Shown: piece by piece, positions 13,095 to 60,581 of the stretch
Layout: each line of letters opens with the position of its first letter
How positions within the stretch are numbered: position 1 is the first letter of the stretch
Source of the DNA: Bacteroidota bacterium
GTDB lineage: Bacteria > Bacteroidota > JABWAT01
DNA length: 64,000 nucleotides
Assembly: GCA_013360915.1 (NCBI GenBank)
Contig: JABWAT010000013.1
Span: forward strand, 1-64,000
Direction: 5' to 3'
Notes under the pieces: model-generated
What the model was told of the DNA's origin: nothing
The model's input: the letters and a program-made list of their open reading frames with translations, nothing else
Database searches by the model: none
Translations under genes and position numbers: made by a program

Positions 13095-13270
13095 GACTAC
13101 CTCCTGAAGGAAAAATAGACAGAGGCTTAAAAACAGACAAAAATATCCTGTATCCTGACTCTCATTTAATCAGATATTAATTCAATCGTACACAAACGAC
13201 CTAACCTGTTTCAGAAGTGCTGCCGTCCTGTCATCTTGCGGTTTATTTGACCATTTCAAACCTGAACTGG

Positions 13271-15025: not shown

Positions 15026-15100
15026 ATCAGACCTAGTGTTTTTTTTCAGCAAAGATGGCTGCTTTGGGAGGTGCTGATCGTCTCAATTTCCTGCAAGCGA

Positions 15101-16841: not shown

Positions 16842-17174
16842 CGTCCTTAAAAATACAAACCACCTGCCCAATGTGTAAGCTCTTTTCATGTCCACGTGCT
16901 GCAGTCCACATGAAAATCTGTTCCATTCCTCCGGTCGGGGAACCCAAAAGGGGGTAAAATTCTGTTCGTACTGATTTATGGCCAGCAATCAAAACCGGCT
17001 GAGACTGCCTGTGAAGGTTCTATATGATTCAAACTTAGATTATTTAGTAGATAAATGACAACGACTTAAAAAATTAACTAAAAATGACGCAGAAGTCTTG
17101 CAATCATTAAGTCGACAAACTAATTTGGCACCCCTGTGTGACACTCGTCACCGAAAGTAACGGAACTGGAGACT
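16842..17174. promoter_or_regulatory. Divergent control region upstream of the CheY operon
   Basis: A 333-base AT-rich gap between a minus-strand gene and the plus-strand signalling operon, so it must carry promoters for both. A TTGGCAC element at 17125-17131 matches the -24 half of a sigma-54 promoter, but the -12 half is not conserved. GGAG precedes the CheY ATG. Confidence 0.45.
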
Positions 17175-17543
17175 ATGAAGCTATTAATTGTAGATGACTC
17201 GAGCATCATGCGGCGGGCCATTCAGAAGTACCTCGATGAGAACCGGATTGAGGTGGTTGGAATGGCAGGTAACGGTCTGGAAGCCATTGATGTGTTTAAA
17301 AAGACCGATCCCGACCTGGTTACCATGGACATCACGATGCCGGAAATGGATGGACTGACCTGTCTTCAGGAGTTGCTGAAGATTAAGCCGTCAGCCAAAA
17401 TCATGGTAATCACAGCCCTGACCGACAATGCCACTGGTTTGAGGGCGTTGAAGCTGGGGGCAAAAAACTTTCTGGGTAAACCGTTCACACCCGAAAAACT
17501 GAACGATGCATTTCAAAAACTGATAGAGGGGCCAAAGCGATGA
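17175..17543 (+). CDS. CheY-like single-domain response regulator
   Basis: 122 residues forming only a receiver domain: acidic pocket D7/D8, phospho-acceptor D52 (TMDITMPEMDG), T80 and K102 (GKPFTP). There is no output domain, so it acts by phosphorylation-dependent binding or as a phosphate carrier. It overlaps the CheX gene by 4 bases (ATGA) and heads an operon with the ammonium-transporter kinase, the likely phosphodonor. CheX would reset it. Confidence 0.92.
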   Translation: MKLLIVDDSSIMRRAIQKYLDENRIEVVGMAGNGLEAIDVFKKTDPDLVTMDITMPEMDGLTCLQELLKIKPSAKIMVITALTDNATGLRALKLGAKNFLGKPFTPEKLNDAFQKLIEGPKR

Positions 17544-17986
17544 CAGACAAAGAATTGCAGGTTTTCCTGGAAGGAACCGTCAACTATTTCCTCGAGGTAT
17601 CAGGAACCCCCGCTGTTATGGGCGTTCCCTACATTAAGGAAACGCAGGAGGAAGTTTCACTCGACCTGACCGGAGCCATAGGTATTTCCGGCAATAAAAA
17701 GGGAGTCATTTACATTACCTGTCCGTCTCCCATGGTTAAGGAGTTGGTCGGAATCATTCTCGGGGATAAAAATCCCGATTCGGGCTCACTTTGTGACATG
17801 ACCGGTGAGATTGCCAACACCATTGCCGGCAATGCCCGTCAGGTTTTCGGTGCCAATTTTATGATTTCGGTTCCCATTATCATTGAAGGAAAACCCGTCC
17901 ACCTGAAAGTAGCCGCCCCCACCTTTGTTATCCCGATTACCTGGAAGACGTTCAAGTCGTTCCTTGTGGTTGGAATCGAATCCTGA
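17540..17986 (+). CDS. CheX-type phosphatase
   Basis: 148 residues of the CheC/CheX/FliY fold. The signature DMTGEIANTIAGNARQ carries E90 and N93, the ExxN pair that promotes CheY-P hydrolysis in CheX. One such helix is present, as expected for dimeric CheX. It overlaps the CheY gene (ATGA) and precedes the transporter-kinase by 23 bases, so it is probably the dedicated phosphatase of this relay and not part of a flagellar cluster (no flagellar genes are in view). Confidence 0.88.
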   Translation: MTDKELQVFLEGTVNYFLEVSGTPAVMGVPYIKETQEEVSLDLTGAIGISGNKKGVIYITCPSPMVKELVGIILGDKNPDSGSLCDMTGEIANTIAGNARQVFGANFMISVPIIIEGKPVHLKVAAPTFVIPITWKTFKSFLVVGIES

Positions 17987-18009
17987 ATCCCCCCGGAGTA
18001 CCCTGAAAA

Positions 18010-21000
18010 ATGGAAAAATCACTGATTGATGTAATGTGGGTCCTGGTGACCGCCGGACTTGTTTTTGTTATGCAGCCCGGGTTCGCCTGTCTGGAATCCG
18101 GACTGACCCGCTCAAAAAACAGCATTAACGTGGCTGTAAAAAACGTAACCGATGCCATGATCGCCCTGATTCTGTTCTGGCTGGTGGGATTCGGCATCAT
18201 GTTCGGAATCTCGGAATCGGGAATTGTCGGGACAAATGAATTCATGATTCCCTTTACGGAAAGTTCATGGAATGTGGCCTTCTTCCTGTTCCAGGCCATG
18301 TTCGTGGCCACAGCGGCCACCATTGTGTCGGGTGCTGTTGCAGAACGGATGAAGTTTGAGGCCTATCTGGTCATGACGGCTGTCATCTCTGCTCTGGTGT
18401 ATCCGTTCTTTGGTCACTGGGCCTGGAATGGCGCAATGACCGATCAGTACACAGGGTGGCTCGGACAACTGGGTTTCCGTGATTTTGCCGGTTCAACCGT
18501 GGTACACAGCATCGGTGGCTGGGCCTCTCTTGCTGCTTTGCTCCTGATCGGACCCCGTGCGGGCCGGTTCAATGAAGCCGGGGTTCCCCGGCAGATTCCG
18601 GGCAGTAACATTCCGCTTGCAGCATTGGGTGTTCTCCTGCTTTGGTTCGGTTGGTTCGGTTTCAATGGCGGATCGACCCTTGGACTGACCGAGCGGGTCC
18701 CGATGATTATTGTTAATACATTCCTGGCAGGAGCGGCCGGTGGGCTTTCCGGTATTCTGATGGGTTACATTGCAAACCGGAAGGTGATCTCGGTTGATCT
18801 GATTTTTAACGGATCTCTGGCTGGTCTGGTATCGGTAACGGCCAGTGCCAACGTGATTTCACCTTTGTCTGCTGTGTTAATCGGATTAATTGCCGGACCT
18901 GTGTTTTTCTCACTTCACCGCCTCCTGCTCCGCTTCCGCATTGATGATGCCATTGATGCCGTCCCTGTTCACCTTGGTGGTGGAATCTGGGGAACGATCG
19001 CGGTTGCCATTTTCGCAGATTATGACACGCTGGGTACCGGCCTCAGCTTCGGAAGTCAGTTGGGTGTACAGCTGCTGGGAGTGGCAGTTGCCGGGCTCTG
19101 GACGTTCCTGATTGTTTTTACCGTACTCTGGATCGTGAATAAATTCCTGAAACTCCGGGTCTCTGCCGAGGATGAGCACATTGGTCTGAACGTGTCAGAA
19201 CACGGGGCGACCACCGAAATCCTGGACCTGTTTATGGCCATGGATCAGCAGGCGAAGACCGGTGACATGAGTCTCCGGGTTCCGGTTGAACCGTTTACCG
19301 AGGTGGGACAAATCGCCAACCGGTATAACAAGGTGATGGAAGCGCTCGAAAAAGCCATCCGGAAGACCGAAGCGATCGTGACCACGGCTTTGGATGGAAT
19401 TATCACCTTCACACCGGACCGGTATGAAATCCTGACGGTGAACCCGGGTGGTCAGGCCATGTTTAAAATCAATGAGCAGGATCTGGCAGGCACTTCACTC
19501 ATCCGGTTGTTCGATCATGAAAACGCCGGGTACAAGGAATTCAATGAGCGCCGGGCCGAAGAGGTATTCAGAAAAGTTGAGGAAACCGGAACCCCGGTGG
19601 AATTGGTGGGTAAACGTGCCGATGGGTCGGTGTTTCCCATGGAAGTGATTGTTACCAAAGCTGACCTGGGTTTCGAATCATTCTACACCGGCATGTTCCG
19701 TGATATCACCGACCGGAAAGAAGCCGAAGCAGCCATTCTGGCGGCCAAGAAAGAAACCGATGATATTCTGTATAATATCAACGAAGGTATCTTTCTTCTG
19801 AATGAAAAGTTCGAGATCGGTTCGCAGCACTCTCTGGCATTGCGAAAAATTTTCCGGCGTCAGGATCTGACGCAGATGAACCTGCTGCTTCTGTTTTCCA
19901 AACTGGTTCCGGCCAAAATCTATCAGTCGATCCAGGATTATCTCGAACTGATGTTTCAGCTGGATATTGACGAAGACATTGTTAACAACCTGAATCCGCT
20001 GAAACAGATCGAAGTGAATTTTGAGGAAGAAACCGGCCAGTTCACCACTCAGTATCTCCAGTTTAAATTCAGCCGTATTTATCATGGAGCACGGGTCAGT
20101 CACCTGATGACGACTGTTTCTGATGTGACGGAACAGGTACTGCTGGCCCGGGAGCTGAAAGCCAGTGAAGAGCGGACCAAAAATCAGATGTCGCTTCTGT
20201 TTAACATTCTTCACATCGATCCGCAGCAACTGAAACCATTTGTTGAAGAATCAGATGAGTCAGTTCGGAAAATTAAATCCACGCTGAAGGCCGCTGCAGA
20301 TAAAGCCATCGCCGATGATTACTATCTCCTGCTTACCGACATTTACCGGATTGTCCACAACATCAAGGGAAATGCCAGTATCCTCGATCTGAAATTCTTT
20401 GCCGAATCGGCACATGAACTGGAAGATATGATCAGGGAGGTCCAGTCGAAGCCATCGATTAAAGGCGAGGATTTTATCACCCTGCTGTTTAAGATTTCAG
20501 AACTGGAATCCAATATTGATGACATCAAAGCCCTGGTTGGCCGGCTGATGGCTTATCAGGGAGTGTCCCGTTCTGCGGGCGGAACCGAGTCACCAGCACC
20601 GGCGCCTGCCTCTGAACGCCGTGCTCCGGACCGTCAGGTCGATCTGGTGATCAATCAGTTAAACGATGCTGCCCGGAAATTGAGTGCAGGTCTGAATAAG
20701 AAAGTTGAATTCAACTCTAAACAATTCGAGGCTTCGGTGGTTCCCGATAATCAGGTCCCGCTTATCCGCGATGTGCTGATTCAGCTGATGCGAAATTCAC
20801 TGGTTCATGGCATTGAGTCACCCGATGAACGGACCCGTGCAGGAAAACCTGTAACAGGTACCATTTCAGTTATCACCTCGGTTACTGAGGAACCGGGATA
20901 TCTGGCCATAAAGATCCGGGATGATGGCCGGGGACTTCAGATCGAGAAAATCCGCCAGAAGGCCATTGAAATGGGTAAATGGAATGAAGGGCAACTGAGA

Positions 21001-45790: not shown

Positions 45791-46252
45791 TCAGGACTGT
45801 TCATCATTCAGTGAATGATATCCTTGTTCACTCAGTTTCTTCAGTGCCTCTTTCATGGCCTTCACCTGTTCTGCCGGATGGCCTATCCATACGGTCACTT
45901 CACCAACCACTCTGAAAGGTTCCCTGGAGCGATATGATTTTGTCGGATTGCCCGGAAACTTTTTATCCGTCAGATCCGGGTCATCTTCGATTGCTCCGGT
46001 GGGCTCTGCCAGGTAGATTCTTTCCGGACCGTCACCAACGGCGAGTTCAGCTCCCCAGATGGCAGCATCCAATGTGGCAGACAGAAAAATAAAGGGGGCG
46101 TTTTTTCGCTGTCCGTAGTTTGAATGGAAACCGGGCTTAATCAGGTCACCGATTCTGAGGTCTGCCTTGGTCCCATGAAAATAGGTTTGGACAAACGGAG
46201 TGGCACCGGCTACGGGTGTGGGTGCATCAGGCTGTGTGTTTTCTGAGGTCAT
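45791..46252 (-). CDS. arr: Rifampin ADP-ribosyltransferase
   Basis: 153 residues with strong Arr-type sequence: YFHGTKADLRIGDLIKPGFH (catalytic H26), NAPFIFLSATLDAAIWGAEL, and the family block EDDPDLTDKKFPGNPTKSYR with REPFRVVGEVT. Arr enzymes use NAD+ to ADP-ribosylate the rifamycin 23-hydroxyl. Composition matches the backbone, and there is no attC site directly beside it, so it looks chromosomal, not a recent cassette. Confidence 0.92.
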   Translation of the reverse strand: MTSENTQPDAPTPVAGATPFVQTYFHGTKADLRIGDLIKPGFHSNYGQRKNAPFIFLSATLDAAIWGAELAVGDGPERIYLAEPTGAIEDDPDLTDKKFPGNPTKSYRSREPFRVVGEVTVWIGHPAEQVKAMKEALKKLSEQGYHSLNDEQS

Positions 46253-46934: not shown

Positions 46935-47066
46935 GAATAACGTTTTGCAGCTACCCGAAGGGCGGGACTTTTACCACAAAACATGATTTGAAAAACAATT
47001 GCTTGATTAACCACAAAACTGTCTTTGGAACATGAAACCCCGCCTTTTGGGTAGGTGCTGTTATGC
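46935..47066. repeat. attC-like recombination site 1
   Basis: Starts with GAATAAC and ends with GTTATGC. The inner arms CTACCCGAAGGGCGGG (46951-46966) and 47039-47054 pair over 16 positions with two G-T wobbles, giving a folded single-strand structure about 130 bases long like integron attC sites. The R' core GTTATGC fits known variants. No integrase is in the window. Confidence 0.7.
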
Positions 47067-47082
47067 GGTCGGCTTTCTTGTA

Positions 47083-47400
47083 TTACCATTGTTTCGTTAC
47101 GTTTTTAAGTTTATCTGTCTCGAAAATAAGTGAAACTCTGTCAAGCGAAATTGTATCAGAATTGAAGTCCATATATTCAAAAAGTCTATGGTCTTTTAGT
47201 TCGCTTTTAATCGCTGATTTTGTCAAGTCAGTTTCATTTATGATTTCAATAAGCTGGTCAAGGTCGTTTTCTGTGTCTGTGTAACCTTCATTTTGGTAAG
47301 TCATTGTCACGCCATGGTCAATAATTGAATAAACGGAAAAAACTGTCACGGCAACCAATAGTGTCAAGCAATACCAAAACGCAATTTTCCATTTATTCAT
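47083..47400 (-). CDS. Small membrane protein in a cassette
   Basis: 105 residues from the ATG at 47400. One N-terminal membrane helix (FWYCLTLLVAVTVFSVYSII) and an acidic C-terminal domain. Overlaps the upstream small membrane gene by 8 bases. It lies between two attC-like sites and resembles the hypothetical genes typical of integron cassettes. Function unknown. Confidence 0.6.
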   Translation of the reverse strand: MNKWKIAFWYCLTLLVAVTVFSVYSIIDHGVTMTYQNEGYTDTENDLDQLIEIINETDLTKSAIKSELKDHRLFEYMDFNSDTISLDRVSLIFETDKLKNVTKQW

Positions 47401-47650
47401 TTTTTGTGTTTTTGTTTTTTGTCCAACGTCTGCCAATAGTCCAAAGAAAAATTGTCAATGAAATGTGGAACACCCAATAAATGAAAGTCCCAATGACTTG
47501 TCCAACCTGATAACTATCTAATTGACCGCTAAATATTTTGATAACCCCGACTATGGCACCAAGAAATTTAGCAAGTTGTCCAACGATTGCAAGCGTCAGT
47601 ATGATAGAAACTACTATAAAAATGTATCCAAATATTTTTCTTGTTGTCAT
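47393..47650 (-). CDS. Small two-helix membrane protein in a cassette
   Basis: 85 residues with two membrane helices (IFIVVSIILTLAIVGQLAKF and IYWVFHISLTIFLWTIG) and a basic C-terminus. First gene of a two-gene cassette. Function unknown; small membrane proteins in mobile cassettes are sometimes phage-defence effectors, which is speculation here. Confidence 0.6.
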   Translation of the reverse strand: MTTRKIFGYIFIVVSIILTLAIVGQLAKFLGAIVGVIKIFSGQLDSYQVGQVIGTFIYWVFHISLTIFLWTIGRRWTKNKNTKNE

Positions 47651-47675
47651 TGTCTGTCTGTCGTTTTAAGCTGCC

Positions 47676-47808
47676 GCATAACGGTTTGGCGGTATGTTTT
47701 TGTTGCCGATTTCGAAGCACTGTCCTGTCAAGTTACACGAAAGTTTATTAGATGCACAAACGCTGAAATACCCACTATCTCGGCAATAAAATATACCGCC
47801 TGTTATGC
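47676..47808. repeat. attC-like recombination site 2
   Basis: GCATAAC at 47676-47682 and its exact inverse GTTATGC at 47802-47808 bound a 133-base site. Inner arms GGCGGTAT/ATACCGCC and GTTGCCGA/TCGGCAAT pair closely. Same overall length as site 1, so the two bound a cassette of 742 bases from GTTATGC to GTTATGC. Confidence 0.78.
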
Positions 47809-48058
47809 ACTGGCGGTTCTTGTCTGTCCGTAGGTTCCTGTCAAATTGCTCTTTCATATTAAACTTGTCAAATTACTACTTCATTTTCTTTTCTGTCTGT
47901 GTCGCCCGTGTGCTGGCGTGTTTTAATTTTTTCTTTTAAGCGTGGGAGAAAAATTTTTAAATTCATCTCTTGGGTTGGCTTTGCAAGCTCTTTGACAAAG
48001 CTTTGGTTGAAGCGTTGGCTTGCGGGGCTTTGGCAATGTGCTTGCAAATGCGTGGGTT
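47802..48058. repeat. Left end leader and hairpin of the defence island
   Basis: GTTATGCAC is followed by ATATTAAACTTG (47856), GTGTTTTAATTTTTT (47918), AAATTTTTAAATTC (47951) and a 67-base hairpin (47981-48047) with 21-base arms. The mirror image, in inverted orientation and with nearly equal spacing, lies at 59617-59858. Confidence 0.7.
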
Positions 48059-49804
48059 TTAATCTGCTTTCCATCTTAACTCAAATTGATCTGGATTCAG
48101 TTTCAATATCTCTTTTATATTTTTACCACCAATTGAACTCATTCCTTCCATCATTCCAACCATCGTACTAGCAACTAAAGATTGAGCCATTACGCTATCA
48201 TTCTTTTTCAACCAATTTTGAGGGCTAAATATTTTTCCACTTAATTGGGCTTGTTGATTAGCGCTCTTTAATGCTTGATTTAAACAAGTTGAAGCATAAT
48301 GCAAAATTTCTTTACCATATTGCTCAACAATGGCTAATGTTGCAGATGGAAATGGAACCTTATCACCTTGATTATTTGCATAGGCAATTATTGAAGATAT
48401 TGAGAATAGAATGTGGAATCTCACATAACTTTTTGTTGCTTTCAGTAAATCGTCTAAGGGCAAATTATCCCAATCCTTCATTATTATCGAATCCCATTTC
48501 TTTAATGCTAAAACAGAAACTGGATTGTAGTCGGACTTAAATACGTTTCTATACAGTTCATCGAATAGTTTTTTCTCATTGTAAGAAATATTTGGTCTTT
48601 GGCATTGCCAAGCCATTACTGTTTTAGCAAAGTCCGAAACATCAACAACTTTACTTTTATCTTTATTGCCAGGTATTTCCATACCCCTTTGATTTATTAG
48701 TAACCCATCAGGATACATTGCTTCATAAGCACGCTTCAAACTCAAAATAACACGATCGTTACTCTTTAAATCACGTGGTTTAACGGCGCTTTGGCTATTT
48801 GTATTTATGCTTATTTTATCTGCTAAGTCCTTTTGCGGAATCTCATAAAACCTGAATAAAATAAAACTTGTTTCTTTTTCAATTCTTCTTACATCTTCAG
48901 AGCATTTATAAATTGTCGTTAAACTTTGGCAACCGTTTACTACATTTAGATCAAAACATTCAAGTGATGTTTTGGCTTCGTTAAGTTTGAATTCTTTACA
49001 GATAGCTGTAATACCGTTATGAGAAAAGAAAAAATCTTGCGGTCTATCACTTTTGATTGACTGTTTTATTTTTTTATTTATTGTATTCCAACCTAAAGAT
49101 TGCCTTACGTTTTTTCTAAAAAGCCTTTGATCGGATATTCCAGGAAATTTCAAACATTCACTTAATGGCAAGGCAACAATAACACTCCTTGTACCTTTAA
49201 TATCAAATGACATTACTTTATCACTTTCAATTTTTATGGTATGATTGATTGCTGGCAATTCTTTAGACTCAGCATCGGTTAATCTTGTTTCAATAACTTC
49301 TGAATCAACAAGAGTTATATTTGCATTGAAATCCTTTGATTGTTCCAATTTTTCAGCAAACACTTTAAAATCGCTGTCAGCAGCAGTTGTAAGTTTCCCG
49401 GTGGTCAATAATTCAAATGTAATATCGTATTCATCATCTAATGCCTGTCTCAGAGCTTCAATCCTTTCCTTTAGCTTATCATTACCATCCGTTTGTAATG
49501 AATGTAGATCTTGAATTCTAACCCATGCAGATAAAATTTCTTGTAAAGGGCCACTGTCAACATTTCCAGATTCATAAAATTTGCCTTGAATAATCAGAAT
49601 ATTTCTGTTTTCATCATCTATAACCAGAGCATCTATTTTTTTATCGTTTGCACCATCAACAACGCATATTTTTGTTGCTTGTGGAGATTGTAAAAGAACT
49701 CTTCTGACGTACCAAGCAACGAATCTAAATCCATCATTAGAAAAATGATCCTGATAAAATTTATCATTACTTATTTCTGATTTTATCTTCTGTAGTATGC
49801 TCAT
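48059..49804 (-). CDS. AIPR abortive-infection protein
   Basis: 581 residues of the AIPR family. The N-terminus holds a Mrr-like nuclease core with D58 and the QxK pair Q73/K75 (KIDALVID..ILIIQGKF), and the middle carries the family motif FFSHNGITAICKEF, VVNGCQSLTTIYK, KISINTNSQSAVKPRDLKSN. AIPR proteins are linked to phage resistance, probably by nuclease action. It is the last gene of the five-gene defence operon, 5 bases after the restriction subunit, and is AT-rich. Confidence 0.88.
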   Translation of the reverse strand: MSILQKIKSEISNDKFYQDHFSNDGFRFVAWYVRRVLLQSPQATKICVVDGANDKKIDALVIDDENRNILIIQGKFYESGNVDSGPLQEILSAWVRIQDLHSLQTDGNDKLKERIEALRQALDDEYDITFELLTTGKLTTAADSDFKVFAEKLEQSKDFNANITLVDSEVIETRLTDAESKELPAINHTIKIESDKVMSFDIKGTRSVIVALPLSECLKFPGISDQRLFRKNVRQSLGWNTINKKIKQSIKSDRPQDFFFSHNGITAICKEFKLNEAKTSLECFDLNVVNGCQSLTTIYKCSEDVRRIEKETSFILFRFYEIPQKDLADKISINTNSQSAVKPRDLKSNDRVILSLKRAYEAMYPDGLLINQRGMEIPGNKDKSKVVDVSDFAKTVMAWQCQRPNISYNEKKLFDELYRNVFKSDYNPVSVLALKKWDSIIMKDWDNLPLDDLLKATKSYVRFHILFSISSIIAYANNQGDKVPFPSATLAIVEQYGKEILHYASTCLNQALKSANQQAQLSGKIFSPQNWLKKNDSVMAQSLVASTMVGMMEGMSSIGGKNIKEILKLNPDQFELRWKAD

Positions 49805-49809
49805 AATAT

Positions 49810-52494
49810 TTATTTTTCAAGTTGATTCATTAATGTTGATTTCCAGATTTTATACTTTTCGTCTTTTATTGATTGGAAAAATGCTGCAATATCGCTTCCA
49901 TCATCGGAAAGGAACTTGAAATAATACCGTTCTTCCAATTTACCTTCTTCCAATTTCTTGTTTAAATTATCAAAATGCACTTTACCATCTCTGTATTTCG
50001 CTTTGTTCTTATTGCTGTCATCATCTTTCTTTTTGGTTTCAATAACGAGGATGTCATTTGTGCCTTTTACTTTCAGGAAAAAGTCAGGATTGAATGTTTC
50101 GTTCTTAACGTGAGTTCTTGCTTTAGTCTCCGGTTTGTATGAATATGGGAAACCATAAAATCCCTTATCAGCCGATTTTAGGAATGCATCAACCAATTCA
50201 ATATTCAGGAAAAGTGTTTTTGCAAATTCAATTTCAGGAGTATATGAAACGTACAATGAATTAAGACTTGTTTTAAATTTTGATTCGTCAACCTTTTGCA
50301 AGTGCTTATTTATTTCTGTCTGAAGAGATGCTAATTCGGCAATTTTTGAAGCAATTGCAACCTTGTCGGAATCGGGCTTTGATAAGTCAGCCGTTAAATC
50401 TGCTATTTGTTTATCAAGACTGGTATAGGTTTTAAACAATGTCTTTTCATCGTCTTTGTAAAAGTCAATTGTTTTTTCTGTGTAGAACAAAAATCCATTT
50501 CTCTTCAAACTGTCTTCGCTGAATGAAAGTGATGGAAAGTGTTCTGGGTTTATTTCAAAAAGTGCATCAGAAACATTTGATACCCTTGGCACTTCTTTTC
50601 CGGTTTCTCTGAACATTGGGCCAAATGCCTGTTGAGCTGATAAATAGTTTTCCTTGCTTAAAAAATCATTCTCATACCCTTTATCTTTCAGTTCTTTTTG
50701 AATGGATGTTTTTAATTTCCCTTTTGGATATTCTTGAGCAATTTTTGGATCTTTATCTTTCAAATATGTGTAAAGATTGGTAACTGCCTGATCAATACCG
50801 TAAACCTCTTTTTCTTCAAATACATAACTGATAGAATTATATTGAAAATCGGCTTTGTATTCCGACACTTTTCTTTGTGGATTAAAACCAAATGTCTTTG
50901 GGGATTGTGCTTTTTCTTTTTTGGTTTCTTTTGTTGTTTCCTTTGGCTCATATTTCAGGTTATGCAACTTGAAAGCATATTTACTTCTGCTTTTATCATA
51001 ACCCCATGAAAGCCGGTTTTCTAATTCCAATATCTCATTATATAGGTTTTGGATTTCGTGATTCCACTTCTCGTGATTATTTACTTTCAGAAAAATTTTA
51101 TCCGCACCAATGGCATCTTTAAGGTTTTGTGGTATTCTTAAACCACGACCTAAGACCTGTGCAATAAGCAATTTTGAATTAAAAGCTTTCTGTTTGTGAG
51201 GCACTACCTGAAATACATTTTTCACATCCCAACCTTCTGTAAGCATTGCGACTGAAATAATCCATTCAACGGGATTTACTTCTTTAGGATTATCTACCGA
51301 TTTTAATAATTTCAGATTGTCTTTTCTGATACTCTCTCCGGCTCTGCCTTCTTTGTCCTTTGATAATATTGGAGCAATTGCTTTGCCATCTTTCGTGTCT
51401 TTCCCAGGCAATCCAGATGTTACCCAAATTGCATTTGTTGCAGCTTCTTCAAAACTAATTTTTTCTTTCTCTGAAATAAATTTCACCAATTCATTCCATT
51501 CAATTATTACTTCTGCTATGCTGGCACATACAACTATAGAAATAGGTTTTACATATTTACCGTATGTTTTAATATTTTCCTGGTGTACTGCCCATATTTG
51601 TTGATAGCCCTTATCATCCTTGTATTCATCAAAAGTTTTTGGGTCAACTTTTTTTACAATGCCTTTGTCAACGGCTTGTTTTAAGCCAAACCGATATATG
51701 ACATCATTAAAATAGTCGTTATTATCTGAACCATAGTAAGTTGTACCGGTTACATTTACGATGTATTTAAAATTGTATTCCTTGTCTTTCAGAAATTCAA
51801 TCCATTTTTTATCCTTACTGTCTGCTTCACCTGAAAAAATATGATGTGCTTCATCATTCATAACTAAAACACTCTGACCTTCGCTTTTAAAACTTGCCTG
51901 AATTGATGAACCAGTCCGCTGATATGTTGCGTGTATGTTTTCGATGCAAATGTCGTTTGGCAAAATAGTTTCAGAAGCATTTTTGATTTCCGGTTGAACA
52001 TATTTTGGGTTAATCGCTTTCAAAATATCAACCAAATCCTTACGGCTGTTAAGTGTTTTGAATTTATCTGTTAATCCTTCTTCTATGGTTAAAGACGGAC
52101 AAAGCACCAATACCTTATCAATAGCTTGCTCGCAAAGCATTACCTGAGCAATACCAAACATTAAAAAGCTTTTTCCTGAACCTGTTGCCAAGTCCATTGA
52201 GCAGGCTTTGAATTTTCTTAATGGAATTGCATTGTCCGACAAATAATCATCCTTGCTTGGATAACGGTCTTTTATTTTAGGATTTTTTAAATAGTTTTCC
52301 TTTGCTAAATCTTCCATTGTTTTATATTTCTCGGAGAGAAGAAAACCAACGGCAGATTTAACTGCATCACGATGAAAAGAATAATCATCGTTGTACAATG
52401 CTTCAAGATAGGTGTCGTATTTATTCAGGATGTCATTAACGGCATCATCATCGAATTTTAATACCAAATCGGTATTGCGTATGCTTATACTCAT
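49810..52494 (-). CDS. res: Type III-like restriction subunit (helicase-nuclease)
   Basis: 894 residues. SF2 helicase: Walker A ATGSGKS (103-109), DEAH box (214-217), motif V-like MLTEGWDVKNV (417-427) and motif VI QVLGRGLRIP (446-455). The C-terminal PD-(D/E)XK nuclease reads NPD (802-804) and ETKKK (from 819). It should translocate on DNA and cut unmodified sites in complex with the adjacent methyltransferase. Start and stop overlap by one base (TAATG) with the mod gene. Low GC compared with the backbone. Confidence 0.9.
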   Translation of the reverse strand: MSISIRNTDLVLKFDDDAVNDILNKYDTYLEALYNDDYSFHRDAVKSAVGFLLSEKYKTMEDLAKENYLKNPKIKDRYPSKDDYLSDNAIPLRKFKACSMDLATGSGKSFLMFGIAQVMLCEQAIDKVLVLCPSLTIEEGLTDKFKTLNSRKDLVDILKAINPKYVQPEIKNASETILPNDICIENIHATYQRTGSSIQASFKSEGQSVLVMNDEAHHIFSGEADSKDKKWIEFLKDKEYNFKYIVNVTGTTYYGSDNNDYFNDVIYRFGLKQAVDKGIVKKVDPKTFDEYKDDKGYQQIWAVHQENIKTYGKYVKPISIVVCASIAEVIIEWNELVKFISEKEKISFEEAATNAIWVTSGLPGKDTKDGKAIAPILSKDKEGRAGESIRKDNLKLLKSVDNPKEVNPVEWIISVAMLTEGWDVKNVFQVVPHKQKAFNSKLLIAQVLGRGLRIPQNLKDAIGADKIFLKVNNHEKWNHEIQNLYNEILELENRLSWGYDKSRSKYAFKLHNLKYEPKETTKETKKEKAQSPKTFGFNPQRKVSEYKADFQYNSISYVFEEKEVYGIDQAVTNLYTYLKDKDPKIAQEYPKGKLKTSIQKELKDKGYENDFLSKENYLSAQQAFGPMFRETGKEVPRVSNVSDALFEINPEHFPSLSFSEDSLKRNGFLFYTEKTIDFYKDDEKTLFKTYTSLDKQIADLTADLSKPDSDKVAIASKIAELASLQTEINKHLQKVDESKFKTSLNSLYVSYTPEIEFAKTLFLNIELVDAFLKSADKGFYGFPYSYKPETKARTHVKNETFNPDFFLKVKGTNDILVIETKKKDDDSNKNKAKYRDGKVHFDNLNKKLEEGKLEERYYFKFLSDDGSDIAAFFQSIKDEKYKIWKSTLMNQLEK

Positions 52495-54848
52495 TATTTA
52501 AAATCTTTTTTGTCTAAAACTAATTTTTTCTCGTTACCGTATTCATCAATCAAAATGACTGCAAGCTTTGCTTTTTTCCACTTTTCCGCATCAATGCTGA
52601 TTTCAACAGGAGTTGTTTCATCTTTTACCAAGTCTTTTCCCCAAAGGTGCATATCCATTGTAAACGGGTCGGCTTCGTAATCAAGGTCAATTAAAACCAA
52701 TGAAAGTGTTTCAAAATTTTTAAAATCCTCCGGAGAATAAAGCAAACCATCAGAATAAAATTCACTCAACCTGATTGTAAATTGGTCTGTTTCAAACATT
52801 CCTTCTTTCTTTTTCTGCTTATGCAAATTATATTTCACTTGTGGCTGAGAAACAAAGTCAAAGCCAAACGCATCTATAACTTCGTTAACATTTTCTTCTG
52901 ATTTGGGTTGTTTGAAACTGCTTAACTCTCCGCTTTGAATAAGTCGGATAAGAACAGAAACAGGAACTTTCAGAAAAGTGTAAACAGTATCGCCCAGCTT
53001 AATTTCATCCTGCATAAAGTTAATGCTTTGCGTAGGTGCAATCACATAAAAACGTTCACCGGCTTTCCCTTTCAAATAACTGTGCAATTCCGAAACGTAA
53101 TCTTCATCAATGGCAATTTTTTTCTTTTCAGGATAATTCCAGATGTAAGCACTATGAACACCAATGTAACCATCAACATTAAAGCCGTTAATACTGTGTT
53201 CATTTTTTCGGACTTCAAACAACTTCATTACAAATTCCTTGTATTGCTCCCAATGAAGATTTAAAATATTCTCTTTATCATAAACACCTGCCGTCAAATA
53301 TGAAAATGTTTTAGTGTTTATGATTTTACCCGTCTCATTTTTGCCTTTTGACTCAATAAATAAAAATTGAATTTCGATGTCGTTTATTTCAAAACAAATA
53401 TATCCCTTTTCATTTTCATATAATTCTTCATCAGTAAGTTTAAGTTGGTCTCTGTTTAATGATAAACTTATAGTTTTTTCCTTTGTAGTTTCTTTAATGA
53501 ATAAAGTAAGTTTCTCAAGATAGTTATAGTCTATACTTTTTATCGCTTTTATTGATTTGTCTGTAAATATTATACTTATGCTATTAGAGAGAGCTTTTTC
53601 AATATCATCTAAACGTTCAATTTCGTTCTGTTTTTCGTTCTGTTTACCTTCTATTTCAGAATGTAAATTAAGAAGTCTTTTCTGTATAGAGTATATGGAT
53701 AATTTTCCGCAATCTATACCAATCCACTTTCTATGTAGTTTTTCCGCAACAGATAAAGTTGTTCCACTACCAGCAAAACAGTCAATTACAATATCACCTT
53801 CATTTGAAGATGCTTTAATAATTCGTTCAAGAAGCCTTTCAGGTTTTTGAGTTGGATAATTTCCTTTGCCACCCTTCATACGTCCTAAATCCTGCCAAAT
53901 ATCTTGAATTACTTGCCCAGATTTTATTCTATCTTCCAAATACACAACTCTACATCTTTGAGCACCTTTAGGATATTGTGGGAGGAATAAATAACCAGTC
54001 TTAAGTTTTTCCTCCATTTCTTCTTCTGTTCCAATCCACTGCAATCCCTTTTTGGGTATTACTCCTCTCCAATTAAAATATTTATCTTTATTACTTCCTT
54101 TCCAAGTAGCCCTTTCAAGTTTTAAAGGTTTTGCTCCAACTGGCAAAGGAAATTTCAGTTTTACGATTTTCCCATCTTGCAATTTCATCCATGAATACTC
54201 TTTCAAAGCACTTTTGGACATTGCTGTTGTAATTCTATCCCAATAATAATCTGCTTCCCCTTTAGTATAATAATAGATTACATCATGAATATTCCCATAT
54301 TTATTTTTAGCATCATTATGAGGATCCGACCTTTGCCAAATAATTTCATTTCTAAAGTTTTCCTCACCAAAAACTTCATCCAAAATTGCTTTTATATAAT
54401 TTCCCTTTTTATAGTCAAGATGGAGATATAAAGAACCACCATCTGCTAAAATTTCTTTAAGAAACACAAGTCTTCTTCTTATAAACTCAATAAATTTTGA
54501 ACCAGCAACTTTATCAGCATAAGCTTTTTCCTTGTCTTTCATAAAGTCGCTTTTTGTAGCAAAAGGCGGGTCAATATAAATGAGTTTTATCTTATTTCTC
54601 AGTCCGTATTTGTTTGGGCCACCTTCTTTCAGGTCTTCGTAAAGAGATTTTAGTGCAAGTAAGTTGTCGCCAAAAATGAGCATATTCCGCCAACCGTCCT
54701 CCCATTCGTTGCCTTCATTAAAAACTCTCACTTCCTGCAATGGGGCTTCAAGTGTATTGGTCAAAATACTTGCTCTTGGTTCTTTGTCAGCATAAACCAG
54801 TTCGTATTCTGCTTTAACTTTTATGTATCCTTTTTTGTCGTTTGCCAT
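52494..54848 (-). CDS. mod: Type III-like DNA adenine methyltransferase
   Basis: 784 residues with beta-class order: motif IV DPPF (93-96) first, motif [10 protein letters not shown] (356-364) later, and [13 protein letters not shown] just ahead of it. The stretch between them (about 170-330) is the target-recognition region. A long C-terminal extension (about 385-784) has no domain I recognise. It modifies adenine and supplies sequence specificity to the restriction subunit encoded next. It begins 32 bases after the PLD nuclease gene in the same operon. Confidence 0.9.
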
Positions 54849-54880
54849 TATATCAAAATATCTAAATTCAGGTTTCTAAA

Positions 54881-56236
54881 TTACTTGTTTGTTTTCAGAT
54901 TCAGGCTATATTCCTTCATTACCTGTTCCCACTTTTTTTGCACATCCTTCGAAATCATCATAGATTCTTCATTTGCTACCTGTTGCTTCTCATTCTTGCC
55001 GAATGATAGAAAATTGAAACTGCCTGCAATATAATAGTCATTGTCTTTGATAACCAGTTTGCGGTGCGTGCCTGTCAGGCGTGAACCAATGCTGTTAAAA
55101 TGTGTCGGTAAATGAATGAGGATGAATGTTTCTTTGTTTTCGCGTTGCAGTTCCTTTACTTTTTCAAGTGTTTGGTAATCGTGTTCGTCTTTTTCGTTTA
55201 TTCCGTAAAGTATTATCAACTGCTTTTTGTCTTTCAGCATTTTTTCAAACAATGGTAGGTATTCCATTGTGGCACGTTTAATCCAAGGGCTTTCAATCAA
55301 GATTTTCTCTTTTACATTATTTAATGCTTCAAGAAATTTATGTTTGGTTTCCCATATTGTTAATGTGGCAAGTTCTGAAGTTATAACTTGTGGTTTAATA
55401 GGCTGTACTGGTTCTTCGGTTACTGCTGCAAGTTCTTCAAAACTGGTGCGGTCTGAACTGCTTAATGAATAAATGTAGTGTCGGTATTCCGAGTTGAATT
55501 TTGCAGATAATGTTTTATCAGGTTTAAGTGTGTCAAAATCTCTTACTTCCAACTTCGCTTCAAGATTTGAATTTCTTTCTGGAATGTACTCAATCAGCCA
55601 ATAATTCAACCAAAAGCCACTTTCACCATCTCTGAAACTGTCAAACTTAATTTCATCGGCATTATAGCTTATTAAATAGCATTTGTTTTCATTGAGTTGT
55701 TTGAACGTGTCTGCAATCTGTTGAAATTTATTCTCAATAATCTCAGGGCTTCTGTTCGGTATTTTAATCTCCGATGTAAGATATTTTTGCAGTTTGGCTT
55801 TGTTAGCAGATTCCTGTTTAATTGTCAAAACATCACCTGAAATTCCATCCAATAAAAACTCAAATTCTTCGTGTTCTTCAATACGTAGAATCTTTTCGTT
55901 TTCCAGAAACTTTTCCCCTTCGGGTGCTACAATCCATTTATCTGCAATTAAATCAACATAATTCTTTTCTTTAAGAAGAAATAACTCTCGAAGTATAAAC
56001 TCATCCTGCTCACCCAATCCGAGGAATTGAAATAGAGTTTTTTGAGTGTTAAAACCTTGCTGAATTGCTCTAAGAAGGACATTATAAACCTTCACAAGAG
56101 AGCCGTCAGGCTGCTTGTTTACAAGTGCATCAATTTTTATCTTTCTAACAGGATAGCTAAATGCAATAAGTTCATTTAACTTAAATCCGGTTGGCGATTT
56201 ATCTTTTAATTCTTTATATGCTTCTAATTCTGTCAT
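54881..56236 (-). CDS. mkoB: Mokosh PLD-family nuclease (MkoB)
   Basis: 451 residues. The first 160 residues are helical, winged-helix-like (NVLLRAIQQGFNTQKTLFQF); a middle beta region follows. The C-terminal phospholipase D domain (about 290-440) has one HKD motif: H391, K393, D398 and the S406/N408 pair (HRKLVIKD..IAGSFN), so it should act as a dimer. The ATG overlaps the stop of the kinase-helicase gene. A kinase-helicase followed by a PLD nuclease is the two-gene composition of type I Mokosh. Confidence 0.83.
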   Translation of the reverse strand: MTELEAYKELKDKSPTGFKLNELIAFSYPVRKIKIDALVNKQPDGSLVKVYNVLLRAIQQGFNTQKTLFQFLGLGEQDEFILRELFLLKEKNYVDLIADKWIVAPEGEKFLENEKILRIEEHEEFEFLLDGISGDVLTIKQESANKAKLQKYLTSEIKIPNRSPEIIENKFQQIADTFKQLNENKCYLISYNADEIKFDSFRDGESGFWLNYWLIEYIPERNSNLEAKLEVRDFDTLKPDKTLSAKFNSEYRHYIYSLSSSDRTSFEELAAVTEEPVQPIKPQVITSELATLTIWETKHKFLEALNNVKEKILIESPWIKRATMEYLPLFEKMLKDKKQLIILYGINEKDEHDYQTLEKVKELQRENKETFILIHLPTHFNSIGSRLTGTHRKLVIKDNDYYIAGSFNFLSFGKNEKQQVANEESMMISKDVQKKWEQVMKEYSLNLKTNK

Positions 56237-59200
56237 TGCGCCAATTGTTTAATAAATTCAGCCTTTGCAACCCATTCCGGCTTAAGATATTCAAGATACA
56301 ATTGCAAAGCTGCTTTTTTCCCATTAAGCCTTTTTGTCGGGGCATTGATTAAGCCATGATAATCACCCACAATAATGAGCAATTTCTTTTGTCGTGATAA
56401 GGCTACATTAATTCGGTTTGGTACTTCAAGGAAACCAAGATTTAAGCCAGCTCCGCTTTTAACAAGGTCAACAATTACAATATCACGTTCTAAACCCTGA
56501 AAACGGTCAACAACTGAAACAGTAAGTTTATCTTCGGATTTATTCCACTTCCAAATATTGTTTATACCGTTCTGATATTTTTTCTTGTCAATTTTCTTTT
56601 TTAATTCTCTGAATTGTGCAGTATATCCAGTAATAACACCAAAGGAATACTCTTTAACTTTTGGATATTTATTTAGATGCTCCAGAATTTCAGCAATCAA
56701 ATCTGCACTTAATTTATTAAACGAAGAATTATTATTGTCCTTTTCATTTTTGGTGTGACTCCCAATATCAATGAATAAAATTGAGCTATTAACGGCTAAA
56801 GGAAGATTGTGTTCTTTGGAAATATCTCTTTTTACCGGAATAATAGGTTCATCGCCCTCTGGCTCATAGAAGCATTTTGAAGTTAAAAGAACTTGCTGTT
56901 CAGATGAACGTCTGCACTCAGTAAGTTGTGCTTTGTAATCGGGTTCTATTTGTGTTATAACCTGTTCAAATAAACTTGGGCGGTTAAAATAATCGTCCCA
57001 GTTTTCCAGATCATCGGATTCTTTTTTAAACTTCTCTCTTAGCCAACCTTCGACTTCTCTTGTCGCTGTGAGCATGGGGCGTAATTGCCTATGGTCACCA
57101 ACGAAAATCAGATTTTTCCCAGTTATAATTGGAACCAAAGCTTCGGCTGTAGTCGCTTTGCCAGATTCATCCATAATTACATAGTCAAATTCGAAGTGGT
57201 ATTTGTTGTATTTCTTTGCTGCTATGTGATTACAAGTTGCACCAATAACCCGAATACTATCAACAAGCTTTTGATTTAATGCACTTTTTTCATCAAGTGA
57301 ATTAATGGTTACAATCCAGTCTCTGTGCAAATCTTGCCGTTTAACAAATTCACCGATATTTGTTTTAAGTACATTGTCAATGAATGGAATTGCTTCGCTT
57401 TTGGTTTTAGGTAAATTATGAAGTTCTTTCAGATTTTGAATTCGGCTAACAATGTGTTCTATTTTTTCTTTTGCTTTATTCCAGTCTTTTACTTCATTTA
57501 ATATTTCAAAAATCGTTGATGCAAATGGATTGCTTTTTTGAAGATTTTGCTTGAAACTATTTATATTATTTTTGAAGTTTCTTTCAGCAGTTTCTCTCAC
57601 TTGCTGTTTCCATCCTTCCAGTTTACGGTCTAAAGTATGTTTTCTAATAATAGGAACTCTTGGAGCAGTAATGCCACTTAATCGTAAAATAGGAATGTCG
57701 TTTTTAAGCAAATTTTCAAGAACCTGATCAACAGCATTATTTGTCTGTGAGGTAATCAGAATTTTCGCTTCAGGTTTTGAGGATAGTATTTGAAATACAA
57801 TTTCAGTAATTACGGTGGTTTTTCCTGTTCCGGGAGGTCCCTGTATTATTGAAAGAGGGGTTTTGTTCAGTGCATTTCTAATAGCTTTTGTTTGATTATC
57901 GGAATATTGAAAAGGAATATTTTTATCATCTTTTTGCCAAACCTTTTCAATTGGTGTATAATCTGAAAAGGATGGAGGAAGTTCATTTGGTTTAAAGAGG
58001 TAATAAATTAAATCAGGGTTTTGAACTTCGTTTTTATCAACTTTTTTAATCGCTTCAAGTTGCCGATTTTTTTCTTCTTCCTTTTTCGCAGTATTTTCAA
58101 AAATATAACCTGTAACAGGGATGTTCTCTTTTTTTAGTCTTTCACAATCCTTTATTTTAAAAAGTTTATCCTTTGAAAAGTACTCATAAGGTTTTCCAGC
58201 AAATTCAACTGTTTCTTTATTTTGTTTTCTGTCTCCGGTCGCTGCAATTATATATTCAAACCCATCTGAGTTAACATCGTTTCCCTCTTCTATGTGTTTT
58301 TGTAAAAACCCTAAACTACTGCATTTTTCATTCTCTTTAATCTGAAAAACAATTTCATCACCATTGACTTTAAAACTGGAATATTGCAAACGCAGAGATT
58401 TATTTGCAATTACTTTTAATTCCTCTTTCAATAATTCAGAATAGAACCCCAGTTCGTCTCTTACTGCTCTTCTGTTTTCACGAAGTGAAATGTCTTTTGC
58501 TTTAAGTTCAGACCATTTCTGAAAATATGAAGTTAAATCAGCTTTATTTTGTGGATATTCATAAGTATAATTGAATTTGAAAGGTAGCTTTTTCCCTTCT
58601 CTGATTTTCCGTTCTGCGATTTTAGAATCAATGGATGAAAAATAATTGATGCCATTAAATAGTAACTTTCTTTCATCTTTAATCCATAAAACGCCTTCAC
58701 AAATAAAACTGCCAAGAATTACATCTGCTAAGAAGTTTAAACCTGGCTTTGGTGCAAGATCAAAAATAGGTGCATTATTTTGTAATAATTCTAATATTTC
58801 ATTTTCATGACCTGCTCTAAATGAAACCCAAACTGATTCAGTTTGTGAAGCATTTGCAAGTTTTCTCAAAAACGATAAAACATCTTGCCATTGAGGTCTG
58901 TCAGCCGGAGTGTTTGATAGTAATTTTTGAAGAATCAAATTATACTCTTCCGGAATAGTTTCTTGTTTTTCATTAAAGAACCATTCAAGAACTTTCCCCA
59001 ATGAATAAATGTCAGATTGATATGGAAAGCCACCTGCATGTAACTTGTTCAATTTTTCAGGAGCAGCAAAACTACTTGCAAAAATTTCAAGGTTTTTCTC
59101 CTGACTAAGTGTTTTTGTGATATCAGCAAGACCGAAATCTATAAGATAAAATTGTCCGTTTTTATCAATTAAAATATTTCCGGGATGAACATCACCATGA

Positions 59201-59577
59201 TTAATCTTGAATTTTGTATGTAATTCTTGTAGGCAGTCTGCTAAATCAATTAATCCACTTAGTGCGGTTTGGGTATTGAATTCCCAGAATGAAGTTTCAA
59301 AAGGTCTTGCATCTTCTAAAAATTCATAAACAATTGCATAAGCTGTTATTTCATTATCAAAACCATATTCAATTATTGGAGGCAAAGCGCTATGTCTGGC
59401 TTTTTGTAAATGCCTGAGTTTGTCAGATAAAATTTTTGCTTTTGTTTCGTTCTTTTCAATACCAAGAATCCATTTAACCCAAAATTGCTGTCCATTTTCA
59501 TCACTGGCTATGCAATTCTGCGAGTATCCTCTTTTTACTATATCCCTTGAATTATATTGATATTTTTCAAATAACAT
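56233..59577 (-). CDS. mkoA: Mokosh Ser/Thr kinase-SF1 helicase fusion (MkoA)
   Basis: 1114 residues. N-terminal protein kinase (about 1-240): K35, catalytic D129 (HGDVHPGN), metal D147 (LIDFG) and SDIYSLGKVLEWF. A linker follows, then a COG1112-type SF1 helicase: Walker A GPPGTGKTT (580-588), motif II DESG (803-806), motif III GDHRQLRP (827-834), motif V VDRFQGLERD (1023-1032) and motif VI NVALSRQ. First gene of the defence operon. No Shine-Dalgarno is apparent before the ATG, unlike many backbone genes. Kinase plus COG1112 helicase with a PLD partner matches type I Mokosh. Confidence 0.85.
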   Translation of the reverse strand: MLFEKYQYNSRDIVKRGYSQNCIASDENGQQFWVKWILGIEKNETKAKILSDKLRHLQKARHSALPPIIEYGFDNEITAYAIVYEFLEDARPFETSFWEFNTQTALSGLIDLADCLQELHTKFKINHGDVHPGNILIDKNGQFYLIDFGLADITKTLSQEKNLEIFASSFAAPEKLNKLHAGGFPYQSDIYSLGKVLEWFFNEKQETIPEEYNLILQKLLSNTPADRPQWQDVLSFLRKLANASQTESVWVSFRAGHENEILELLQNNAPIFDLAPKPGLNFLADVILGSFICEGVLWIKDERKLLFNGINYFSSIDSKIAERKIREGKKLPFKFNYTYEYPQNKADLTSYFQKWSELKAKDISLRENRRAVRDELGFYSELLKEELKVIANKSLRLQYSSFKVNGDEIVFQIKENEKCSSLGFLQKHIEEGNDVNSDGFEYIIAATGDRKQNKETVEFAGKPYEYFSKDKLFKIKDCERLKKENIPVTGYIFENTAKKEEEKNRQLEAIKKVDKNEVQNPDLIYYLFKPNELPPSFSDYTPIEKVWQKDDKNIPFQYSDNQTKAIRNALNKTPLSIIQGPPGTGKTTVITEIVFQILSSKPEAKILITSQTNNAVDQVLENLLKNDIPILRLSGITAPRVPIIRKHTLDRKLEGWKQQVRETAERNFKNNINSFKQNLQKSNPFASTIFEILNEVKDWNKAKEKIEHIVSRIQNLKELHNLPKTKSEAIPFIDNVLKTNIGEFVKRQDLHRDWIVTINSLDEKSALNQKLVDSIRVIGATCNHIAAKKYNKYHFEFDYVIMDESGKATTAEALVPIITGKNLIFVGDHRQLRPMLTATREVEGWLREKFKKESDDLENWDDYFNRPSLFEQVITQIEPDYKAQLTECRRSSEQQVLLTSKCFYEPEGDEPIIPVKRDISKEHNLPLAVNSSILFIDIGSHTKNEKDNNNSSFNKLSADLIAEILEHLNKYPKVKEYSFGVITGYTAQFRELKKKIDKKKYQNGINNIWKWNKSEDKLTVSVVDRFQGLERDIVIVDLVKSGAGLNLGFLEVPNRINVALSRQKKLLIIVGDYHGLINAPTKRLNGKKAALQLYLEYLKPEWVAKAEFIKQLAQ

Positions 59578-60581
59578 ACGAAGTACTATATGGTTGTTAG
59601 TTTGCGGGTCGGAAAGATTGCACTCTTTGACAAAGCTTTGGTTGCAGCGCTGGCTTGTGTGGCTTTGGCAATGTGTGCAATGTGGGTCGGCAGAATTTCA
59701 AAATTTTTGTGCGGTGGGTAAAAAAAATTAAAACACATTTGGATCGGCAATGAGTGTCGGGTTATTTGTCTATCAGTTTCGTTTTTCATACCAAGTTTAA
59801 TATTCTATTTTCATTGTCAATTTGCAGTGTCGTTGTCTTTTCTCCGCTTGTGCATAACTATCTTATAGCTCTCAAAAATATTCCCCAATCCGGCTGTATT
59901 GGGTAGATATGGGAATATTTATGCCTGGTTCGCCAGATAACAGGTAAATCCTTCGGTACCTGTCGTTAACAGGATCTTGGTTCTTCTGAAAGGTCCATTG
60001 CTGGCGTCTTTGTTTATCCCCGGTCATCGTTGATTGGCTGTGTTCAGGTAATGCCTGAATGTAACGGATCGCATTCTCCTTTTCAAGAAGATGGTGGCCT
60101 GGGGTTGGGGAGCGGGAAAAGTGACGAGTAACGCGTGACGAGAGACGAGTAGGCGTGACAAGCTCTGAAGGGGTTTTCCTCACTTTCCGGGTTTTGCATT
60201 TGTCAGGGTTCGCAGACAGGATAGCCCCTGACTCTTGATCCCTCTCCGGTGAAGAGGGAGTTTTCCGTGGTAGCTCCCTGTCATGTTCACTCCCTTTCCG
60301 GGGTTAACGATACATACCGGGTCCGGTTGGGTCGTGGGGCCCGGAAAAACAGAACCTGTTCCTGATTTTCTTTTTCGGTGGAGATAGAATCATCCTTTTT
60401 CCCACGTCACAGAAACGGCCCGCCTTCGAAGAAGAAAGTGGTAGTCTGATTTTATTTTGCAAGGCAGTGGCTTACATTTAATGAAATATTAATCATTCCG
60501 GTGCGGGTAAATGTCCATTGGTCCCAGGACGATGATCGGGTGGTTTAACAACTTGTCATGCTTAACCAGAAGGGTCTGTTT
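59578..60581. other. Long intergenic region right of the island
   Basis: About 1 kb without a credible gene. It holds the right island end (59617-59858), a stem-loop AAATATTCCC/GGGAATATTT (about 59876-59921), GTGACGAG-type repeats (60119-60160) and a CCCTCT/AGAGGG dyad near 60239. The defence operon promoter must lie in the first 250 bases; none is obvious. Confidence 0.55.
59617..59858. repeat. Right end hairpin and leader of the defence island
   Basis: Hairpin 59617-59681 with 20-base arms (17 of 20 paired), then GAATTTCAAAATTTTT (59693), AAAAAATTAAAACAC (59721), CAAGTTTAATAT (59792) and GTGCATAAC (59850-59858). These mirror the left end in inverted order and nearly equal spacing. A 53-base part of the hairpin (59623-59675) is 49/53 identical to 47988-48040 in direct orientation, possible because the hairpin is near-palindromic. 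Confidence 0.7.

Follow-up and report, generated by a model that had tools for sequence, protein, structure and literature searches.

How did five genes of defence type come to lie together on one strand of a bacterial chromosome, and do they form one system or one transported unit? These questions are raised by contig JABWAT010000013.1 of a Bacteroidota bacterium (assembly GCA_013360915.1). The window, meaning the whole 64-kb stretch of DNA that was analysed, holds the genes as a block on its minus strand, in the following operon order (aa, amino acids):

56233-59577, minus strand: kinase-helicase (MkoA-like, KinHel), 1114 aa; PADLOC MkoA 5e-140 over 15-1097; Pkinase 6e-15, AAA_11 3e-40, AAA_12 3e-31
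54881-56236, minus strand: PLD-family nuclease (MkoB-like), 451 aa; PADLOC MkoB 1.3e-24; MkoC 2e-13 on residues 283-443
52494-54848, minus strand: type III Mod-like beta-class N6/N4 DNA methyltransferase, 784 aa; N6_N4_Mtase 3.8e-44; MTase_III 1e-51; EcoP15I Mod 7e-14
49810-52494, minus strand: Res-like superfamily 2 (SF2) helicase, 894 aa; ResIII 4.9e-13; REase_III 6e-10; restr_BPTD_3080 2.5e-22 (below cut-off)
48059-49804, minus strand: AIPR/AbiU-like protein, 581 aa; AIPR 1.3e-28; AbiU 1.8e-36

It is very probable that these five genes constitute an integron-type cassette of 12.18 kb, which stands first at an orphan attI belonging to an integron-like platform whose recombinase resembles XerA and lacks the I2 helix, and that the defence content of the cassette is modular. 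An earlier note on this DNA had described five open reading frames (ORFs) on one strand, overlapping or 5-32 bp apart, and all five are where it placed them; the junctions are, in operon order, a 4-bp overlap, a 32-bp gap, a 1-bp overlap and a 5-bp gap. Its family identities, namely Mokosh (type I), type III-like restriction-modification (R-M) and AIPR, are upheld by the PADLOC and Pfam matches, and its suggestion of joint expression is likewise supported, the five genes being one probable transcription unit. Between them no terminator-like site was found, in a scan whose overall number of sites was at chance level; a promoter scan did not rise above chance, and no promoter is claimed. A search of the region against Rfam gave no match.

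The operon is bounded by integron recombination sites

The GC content of the block is 31-37%, as against 51-55% outside it, and the block is therefore a sharply bounded foreign insert. What the earlier note had overlooked is that the low-GC sequence goes on, as a further small cassette, to about 46.9 kb, and that both ends of the block are recombination sites:

47682-59857, minus strand: cassette B (whole operon), 12,176 bp; starts at G^TTATGC (59858^59857), ends at the G of the attC R'' box; no attC inside
47676-47808, minus strand: attC of the operon cassette, 133 nt; R' GCATAAC ... R'' GTTATGC; covariance model 81.3 bits, E 4e-17, exact ends
46941-47681, minus strand: cassette A, 741 bp, with two small ORFs (47393-47650, 47083-47436); opens with GTTATGC, in agreement with the R' box (GCATAAC) of its own attC
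46935-47066, minus strand: attC of cassette A, 132 nt; R'' GTTATTC at the chromosome junction; 39.7 bits, E 3.9e-7, same model
59858-59947, minus strand: orphan attI-like site, ending in ...GAGAGCTATAAGATAG^TT, directly upstream of the operon cassette; homology to the attI on contig C31
47988-48040, plus strand: copy of a 53-nt direct repeat near the cassette 3' end; 92% identical to 59623-59675
59623-59675, plus strand: copy of the same repeat in the cassette leader; 92% identical to 47988-48040

Each cassette of an integron starts with the complement of the R' box of its own attC. At its start the operon reads GTTATGC, exactly the reverse complement of GCATAAC, the R' box of the attC at its own far end, and all four variable positions of this chain rule agree for cassette A, for cassette B and for a sister of the operon cassette in a genome of another genus of the same family (G001). 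Of the 83 consecutive junctions in all loci read, 65 agree perfectly (4 of 4 variable positions), where 4.9 were expected and the maximum in 5000 shuffles was 13. Because an attC, a complementary start and the chain rule hold at its ends, the operon is a 12,176-bp cassette, and at the level of sequence these boundaries are established. The marks of an integron cassette are found here together: a 3' attC with R'/L' and L''/R'' boxes and a conserved fold, the chain rule, and insertion at attI.

The attC sites were scored with a covariance model trained only on eight sites from G001, the operon's own site being left out. In the 64 kb it found the two window sites, with exact ends, and nothing else. 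The helix covariation amounts to 88.4% paired positions versus 55% in shuffled alignments, with a score of 0.746 versus 0.193, and versions slid out of register fail, the alignment having been fitted to the model. Folded as DNA, the operon attC has a z-score of -4.4 on one strand and -3.0 on the other. A search of the genome with a single attC pattern matched controls as often. The palindrome and the covariation favour use of the site as a folded strand; paired binding of its two arms would fit too.

The sequence shared by the window and G001 reaches from GTTATGC (59858) to GTTA(T/G)G (47676) and ends there on both sides, where the flanks differ. In G001 the operon is again the first cassette, after TATATAAACGAG^TT, and is followed by eight more cassettes with attC sites of 131-133 nt. 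In the window, a stretch of 90 nt immediately upstream of the operon shows homology to the attI that lies beside a Xer-type recombinase on contig C31 of the same genome, with a z-score of 14.2 that shuffles never reached. Since the two sites match in this way, the operon is the first cassette at an orphan attI of the Xer-type platform.

These boundaries bear on the proposal that the locus is a defence island of the ordinary kind, delivered by a different mobile element or by homologous recombination, in which the attC-like flanks stem from small neighbouring cassettes and the operon is no cassette. Nested and mosaic defence genes are indeed common, there is no integrase beside the array, and a 53-nt direct repeat lies near both ends of the operon. 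Yet the operon start exactly complements the R' box of its own attC in two genomes, at unrelated loci, and it is there that the shared sequence ends; both copies of the repeat are internal to the cassette; the partly annotated flanks revealed no other gene for an integrase or transposase next to the operon; and on a Flavobacteriales contig a KinHel homologue, of the same gene family, also begins beside an attC array of this kind. An origin as an ordinary island is thus very unlikely. The 53-nt repeats are present in the G001 sister too.

A Xer-type recombinase accompanies the same attI and attC sites

Three genomes of the order have sites of the window type, 131-134 nt in length, grouped downstream of a second tyrosine recombinase. 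The loci concerned, and the canonical IntI integron of the host, are the following (G000 is the window genome):

L086 (G000:C31:1-8000), L085 (G001:C1) and L084 (G011:C30): Xer-type integrase directly upstream of attI (TATAAACGAG^TT) and attC arrays
L017 (G000:C23), 12046-18253: canonical IntI integron; small cassettes; attC 145-155 nt, one of 123 nt

The Xer-type enzyme is closest to XerA, and IntI4 (2a3v) is among its best structure and sequence matches. It has the tyrosine recombinase core in common with IntI: against the IntI model (TIGR02249), positions ~2-180 and ~238-315 are matched with 104-134 bits, the cut-off being 265. Unlike IntI, it lacks the segment of the I2 or "patch" helix, both in the alignment and in the predicted structure, carries an additional N-terminal domain of ~75-95 aa, and is codirectional with its cassettes. 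One homologue is named 'site-specific tyrosine recombinase/integron integrase' by NCBI, so that the protein family, not the system, bears an integron-related name.

In a phylum sample of 395 genomes, which includes four of the window's order, 118 have Xer-type homologues at E<=1e-50. Full-length attC arrays were found at 17 of the 20 closest further loci besides the three in the order, with all 72 matches on the integrase strand, and were less frequent beside more distant homologues. These 17 and the three in the order make up 20 loci with an integrase and downstream attC sites. In every one of them the start of the first cassette, as predicted from the first attC, follows an attI resembling TATAAACGAG; this start lies 66-123 nt past the integrase in 19 loci and 466 nt past it in the remaining one, where the integrase frame is broken. 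The integrase, the attI and six attC sites are also present on a plasmid of Chryseobacterium sp. SNU WT5, a cultured bacterium. Those relatives of the cassette and of the integrase that bear names belong to Bacteroidota. We infer that the Xer-type recombinase inserts and excises these cassettes.

Alternatively, the cassettes could have been moved by the canonical IntI encoded on contig C23, the Xer-type recombinase standing beside similar arrays incidentally. A bona fide IntI is present in the window genome and in all 4 examined genomes of the order, and no integrase other than IntI is known to use attC. Against this, the IntI array holds the other attC type tabulated above (TAACTATCGTTTCA), which the covariance model leaves unmatched, and the window attI, which matches the Xer-type attI so strongly, reaches a z-score of 2.0 only against the attI of the canonical IntI. 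Moreover, IntI exceeded its cut-off in 3 of the 20 tested genomes with a Xer-type integrase and arrays and in none of the other 17, several of which are single-contig. Movement by IntI with an incidental Xer-type enzyme is accordingly unlikely. As to content, several cassettes of the canonical integron encode lipoprotein-like ORFs, one with a weak match to a type IX secretion system C-terminal sorting domain.

A conserved core with an optional R-M insert

The kinase-helicase occurs in 3 of the 395 phylum genomes, each of them a member of the window's order. In the G001 sister cassette, within the same boundary sequences, the order is KinHel-PLD-AIPR-DUF3644, and Mod-Res is absent; the extra gene, DUF3644/PDC-S19, follows AIPR. 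Amino-acid identity between the two cassettes is 97% for KinHel, 91% for PLD and 93% for AIPR, and the leader and tail are also common to both. As 16%, 42% and 55% of the 4-fold sites, respectively, differ despite this identity, all three genes are under purifying selection.

Mod-Res stands exactly between PLD and AIPR in the window cassette, and was either gained there or lost from the sister. At the KinHel start the nucleotide identity is 99%; it falls to 84% and 79% in the sequences flanking the Mod-Res junction and is 90% in the tail, a profile that fits a swap of the Mod-Res-bearing segment between related cassettes or loss of Mod-Res in the sister. In two further genomes (G073, G393), Mod-Res of this family is unaccompanied by Mokosh or AIPR. 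These comparisons support KinHel-PLD-AIPR as a conserved core, made up of Mokosh type I and a putative nuclease, with Mod-Res as an optional insert.

It had been proposed in the earlier note that the five parts act as one new combined system, in which Mod marks self by methylation and Res, the kinase-helicase, PLD and AIPR are dependent, layered effectors. The tight spacing and the one probable transcript speak for this, as do two genomes in which distant AIPR proteins adjoin a type III Mod-Res. However, the sister lacks Mod-Res while its other three genes are under strong purifying selection, same-family Mod-Res stands alone elsewhere, and the five-gene order, by whose recurrence the proposal was to be judged, was not found again among the 395 phylum genomes, all 4 sampled genomes of the class, viral contigs, plasmids and a genome-contig scan. 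That last scan used poorly sensitive patterns and returned 3 true relatives, so that absence from it is weak evidence, and coverage outside the phylum is thin; plasmid searches with KinHel and Mod yielded distant matches only. Because G001 has the trio without Mod-Res and Mod-Res occurs on its own in other genomes, a single obligate five-part machine is rejected, and an integrated system of the proposed kind is very unlikely. The sister cassette is a natural comparison for identifying dispensable parts of the operon.

Related gene arrangements were seen elsewhere. In a third genome of the family (G011:C31; L006, 1116-13404), a KinHel of 62% identity is paired with a truncated PLD gene without the HKD half, flanked by an hsdM-like gene (identified by eye) and by hsdS/hsdR. 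The two AIPR clusters with type III genes, from two families, lie at 3914-16501 of L059 (G131) and 4248-16890 of L065 (G030), the hidden Markov model (HMM) scan covering L065 only; their order is DrmD-like helicase, LmuB-like ATPase, AIPR, type III Mod, YhcG/PDC-S02 nuclease, Res.

Protein families and the proposed mechanism

By direct reading, the motifs of the kinase-helicase are intact, both in the Ser/Thr kinase (HGDVHPGN, DFG) and in the superfamily 1 helicase of UPF1/IGHMBP2 type (GPPGTGKT, DESG, all motifs). The PLD protein has an intact C-terminal HKD motif, HRKLVIKD. With kinase and helicase in one protein (MkoA) and an adjacent PLD gene (MkoB) overlapping by 4 bp, the pair has the two-gene order and domains of Mokosh type I, the MkoA match being full-length. 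The cassettes differ from that system in having AIPR as a third conserved gene in both, Mod-Res inserted in one, and carriage by an integron cassette.

In Mod, DPPF precedes FAGSGTT, both intact, and Res has intact GSGKS and DEAH motifs and a C-terminal PD...ExK-like motif. The pair resembles type III R-M in its beta-class Mod adjoining an SF2 helicase-nuclease and in its overlapping genes; it differs in the weak match of Res to type III models (6e-10) and in a C-terminal part of Mod of ~370 aa. This long C-terminus, which the earlier note had called unexplained, is present, although it is not peculiar to the operon: full-length homologues in four other genomes have it, and it therefore belongs to the Mod subfamily.

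The AIPR protein matches both the AIPR and AbiU models and is joined here to a Mokosh operon; the other relatives in the phylum share 30% identity or less with it. Residues D54, D58, Q73 and K75 are invariant in 16 homologues and, judged from the motif, look like an Mrr-like D...QxK nuclease site. Weak structure matches of the AIPR model to the PD-(D/E)xK type were set aside as evidence, the PDB match not being significant, and a PDB sequence search with AIPR, PLD and Res gave no matches. Two other systems were compared. The full mad gene set of methylation-associated defence (MADS; kinase MAD6) was not found, weak kinase/ATPase matches to mad6 and mad8 being the only ones, and AIPR scored 37.5 bits against the MzaE NCBIfam model of MZA (cut-off 1050).

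In the mechanism that we propose, the Xer-type enzyme, acting in trans, would integrate the operon cassette at attI, and the genes would be co-expressed from the first-cassette position. The kinase-helicase would detect or remodel phage nucleic acid, and its phosphorylation would license the PLD nuclease, and perhaps the AIPR nuclease, as effectors. Mod-Res would independently restrict unmodified DNA, the five parts being joined by transcription and transport, not by one mechanism.

Several observations weigh against this account. Recombination and defence activity are both deduced from sequence. No integrase stands beside the window array, so that activity there would be in trans, and an integron as defined by IntI, with I2/patch beside the array, is not what was found; the IntI of the genome could itself have moved the cassettes. 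I2 is known only from IntI and has been reported as necessary for cassette capture (PMC7790495), so that an I2-less integrase working on folded attC would need a new mechanism. The predicted Xer-type structure has a modest pTM (0.52). Mokosh membership is suggested by HMM matches, of which that of MkoB is moderate and accompanied by no Pfam match, and the predicted AIPR structure has a mean pLDDT of 73 and no significant match to solved nucleases in the PDB.

The largest cassettes found carry defence or restriction genes

In a small sample, taken around integrases, 89 cassettes with verified boundaries have a median length of 980 bp, and seven are at least 4 kb long (4-12 kb). All seven carry defence or restriction genes:

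12,176 bp: the operon described here, the largest
G001 sister cassette
8154 bp: OLD-type ATPase and type III R-M
6338 bp: hsdMSR
5011 bp: HerA-NurA-methyltransferase
4960 bp: C5/Eco57I-type methylase operon
4092 bp: TIR operon

The gene order XRE regulator, AAA/OLD-type ATPase, type III Mod, Res recurs at 4616-12087 of L158 (G185) and 18376-25475 of L165. The L158 copy is the verified 8.15-kb cassette; that in L165, on Chryseobacterium oryzae plasmid NZ_CP094530.1, lies between IS91 copies.

Chromosomal integrons and clusters of attC sites lacking integrases (CALIN) with defence cassettes (Darracq 2025; Kieffer 2025; both as summarised in PMC12409362) are alike in attI, folded attC, cassette chain, defence cargo and first-position insertion. 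According to section 5 of that 2025 review, citing Darracq et al., the defence cargo of integrons is streamlined, with a notable absence of systems that have more than two genes. The present cassettes differ from those that section describes in their size of 4-12 kb, their 3-6 genes and their recombinase.

On balance, the evidence leans towards a distinct class of integron, widespread in Bacteroidota-like genomes, with an I2-less XerA-type recombinase, its own attI (TATAAACGAG^TT), attC sites of 131-134 nt, and cassettes large enough for complete multi-gene immune systems (type I, II and III R-M, HerA-NurA, TIR, Mokosh with AIPR). No description of such a type was found in the literature searched, a search that preprints and most subscription journals lay outside, and priority is not established.

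The current view is that integrons depend on the I2 helix of IntI for capture of folded attC sites and carry small cargo, usually of one or two genes. A full grammar of attI, attC and cassettes, mostly without IntI, with an I2-less recombinase and defence operons of 4-12 kb, would challenge both rules; if the platform is active, the statement that I2 is necessary (PMC7790495) and that on systems of more than two genes, as it appears in the section cited above (PMC12409362), would need qualifying. Such arrays would allow a direct test of the evolution of integron integrases, and may show how bacteria transfer whole immune systems as single cassettes. They would account for multi-gene immune systems moving as units within the phylum, and also for their being overlooked, since attC sites 12 kb apart and an integrase other than IntI are hardly likely to be recognised as an integron.

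Beside the insertion, in sequence of host-like GC content, the window also encodes a rifampin ADP-ribosyltransferase (Arr, Pfam 1.4e-47) at 45791-46252.

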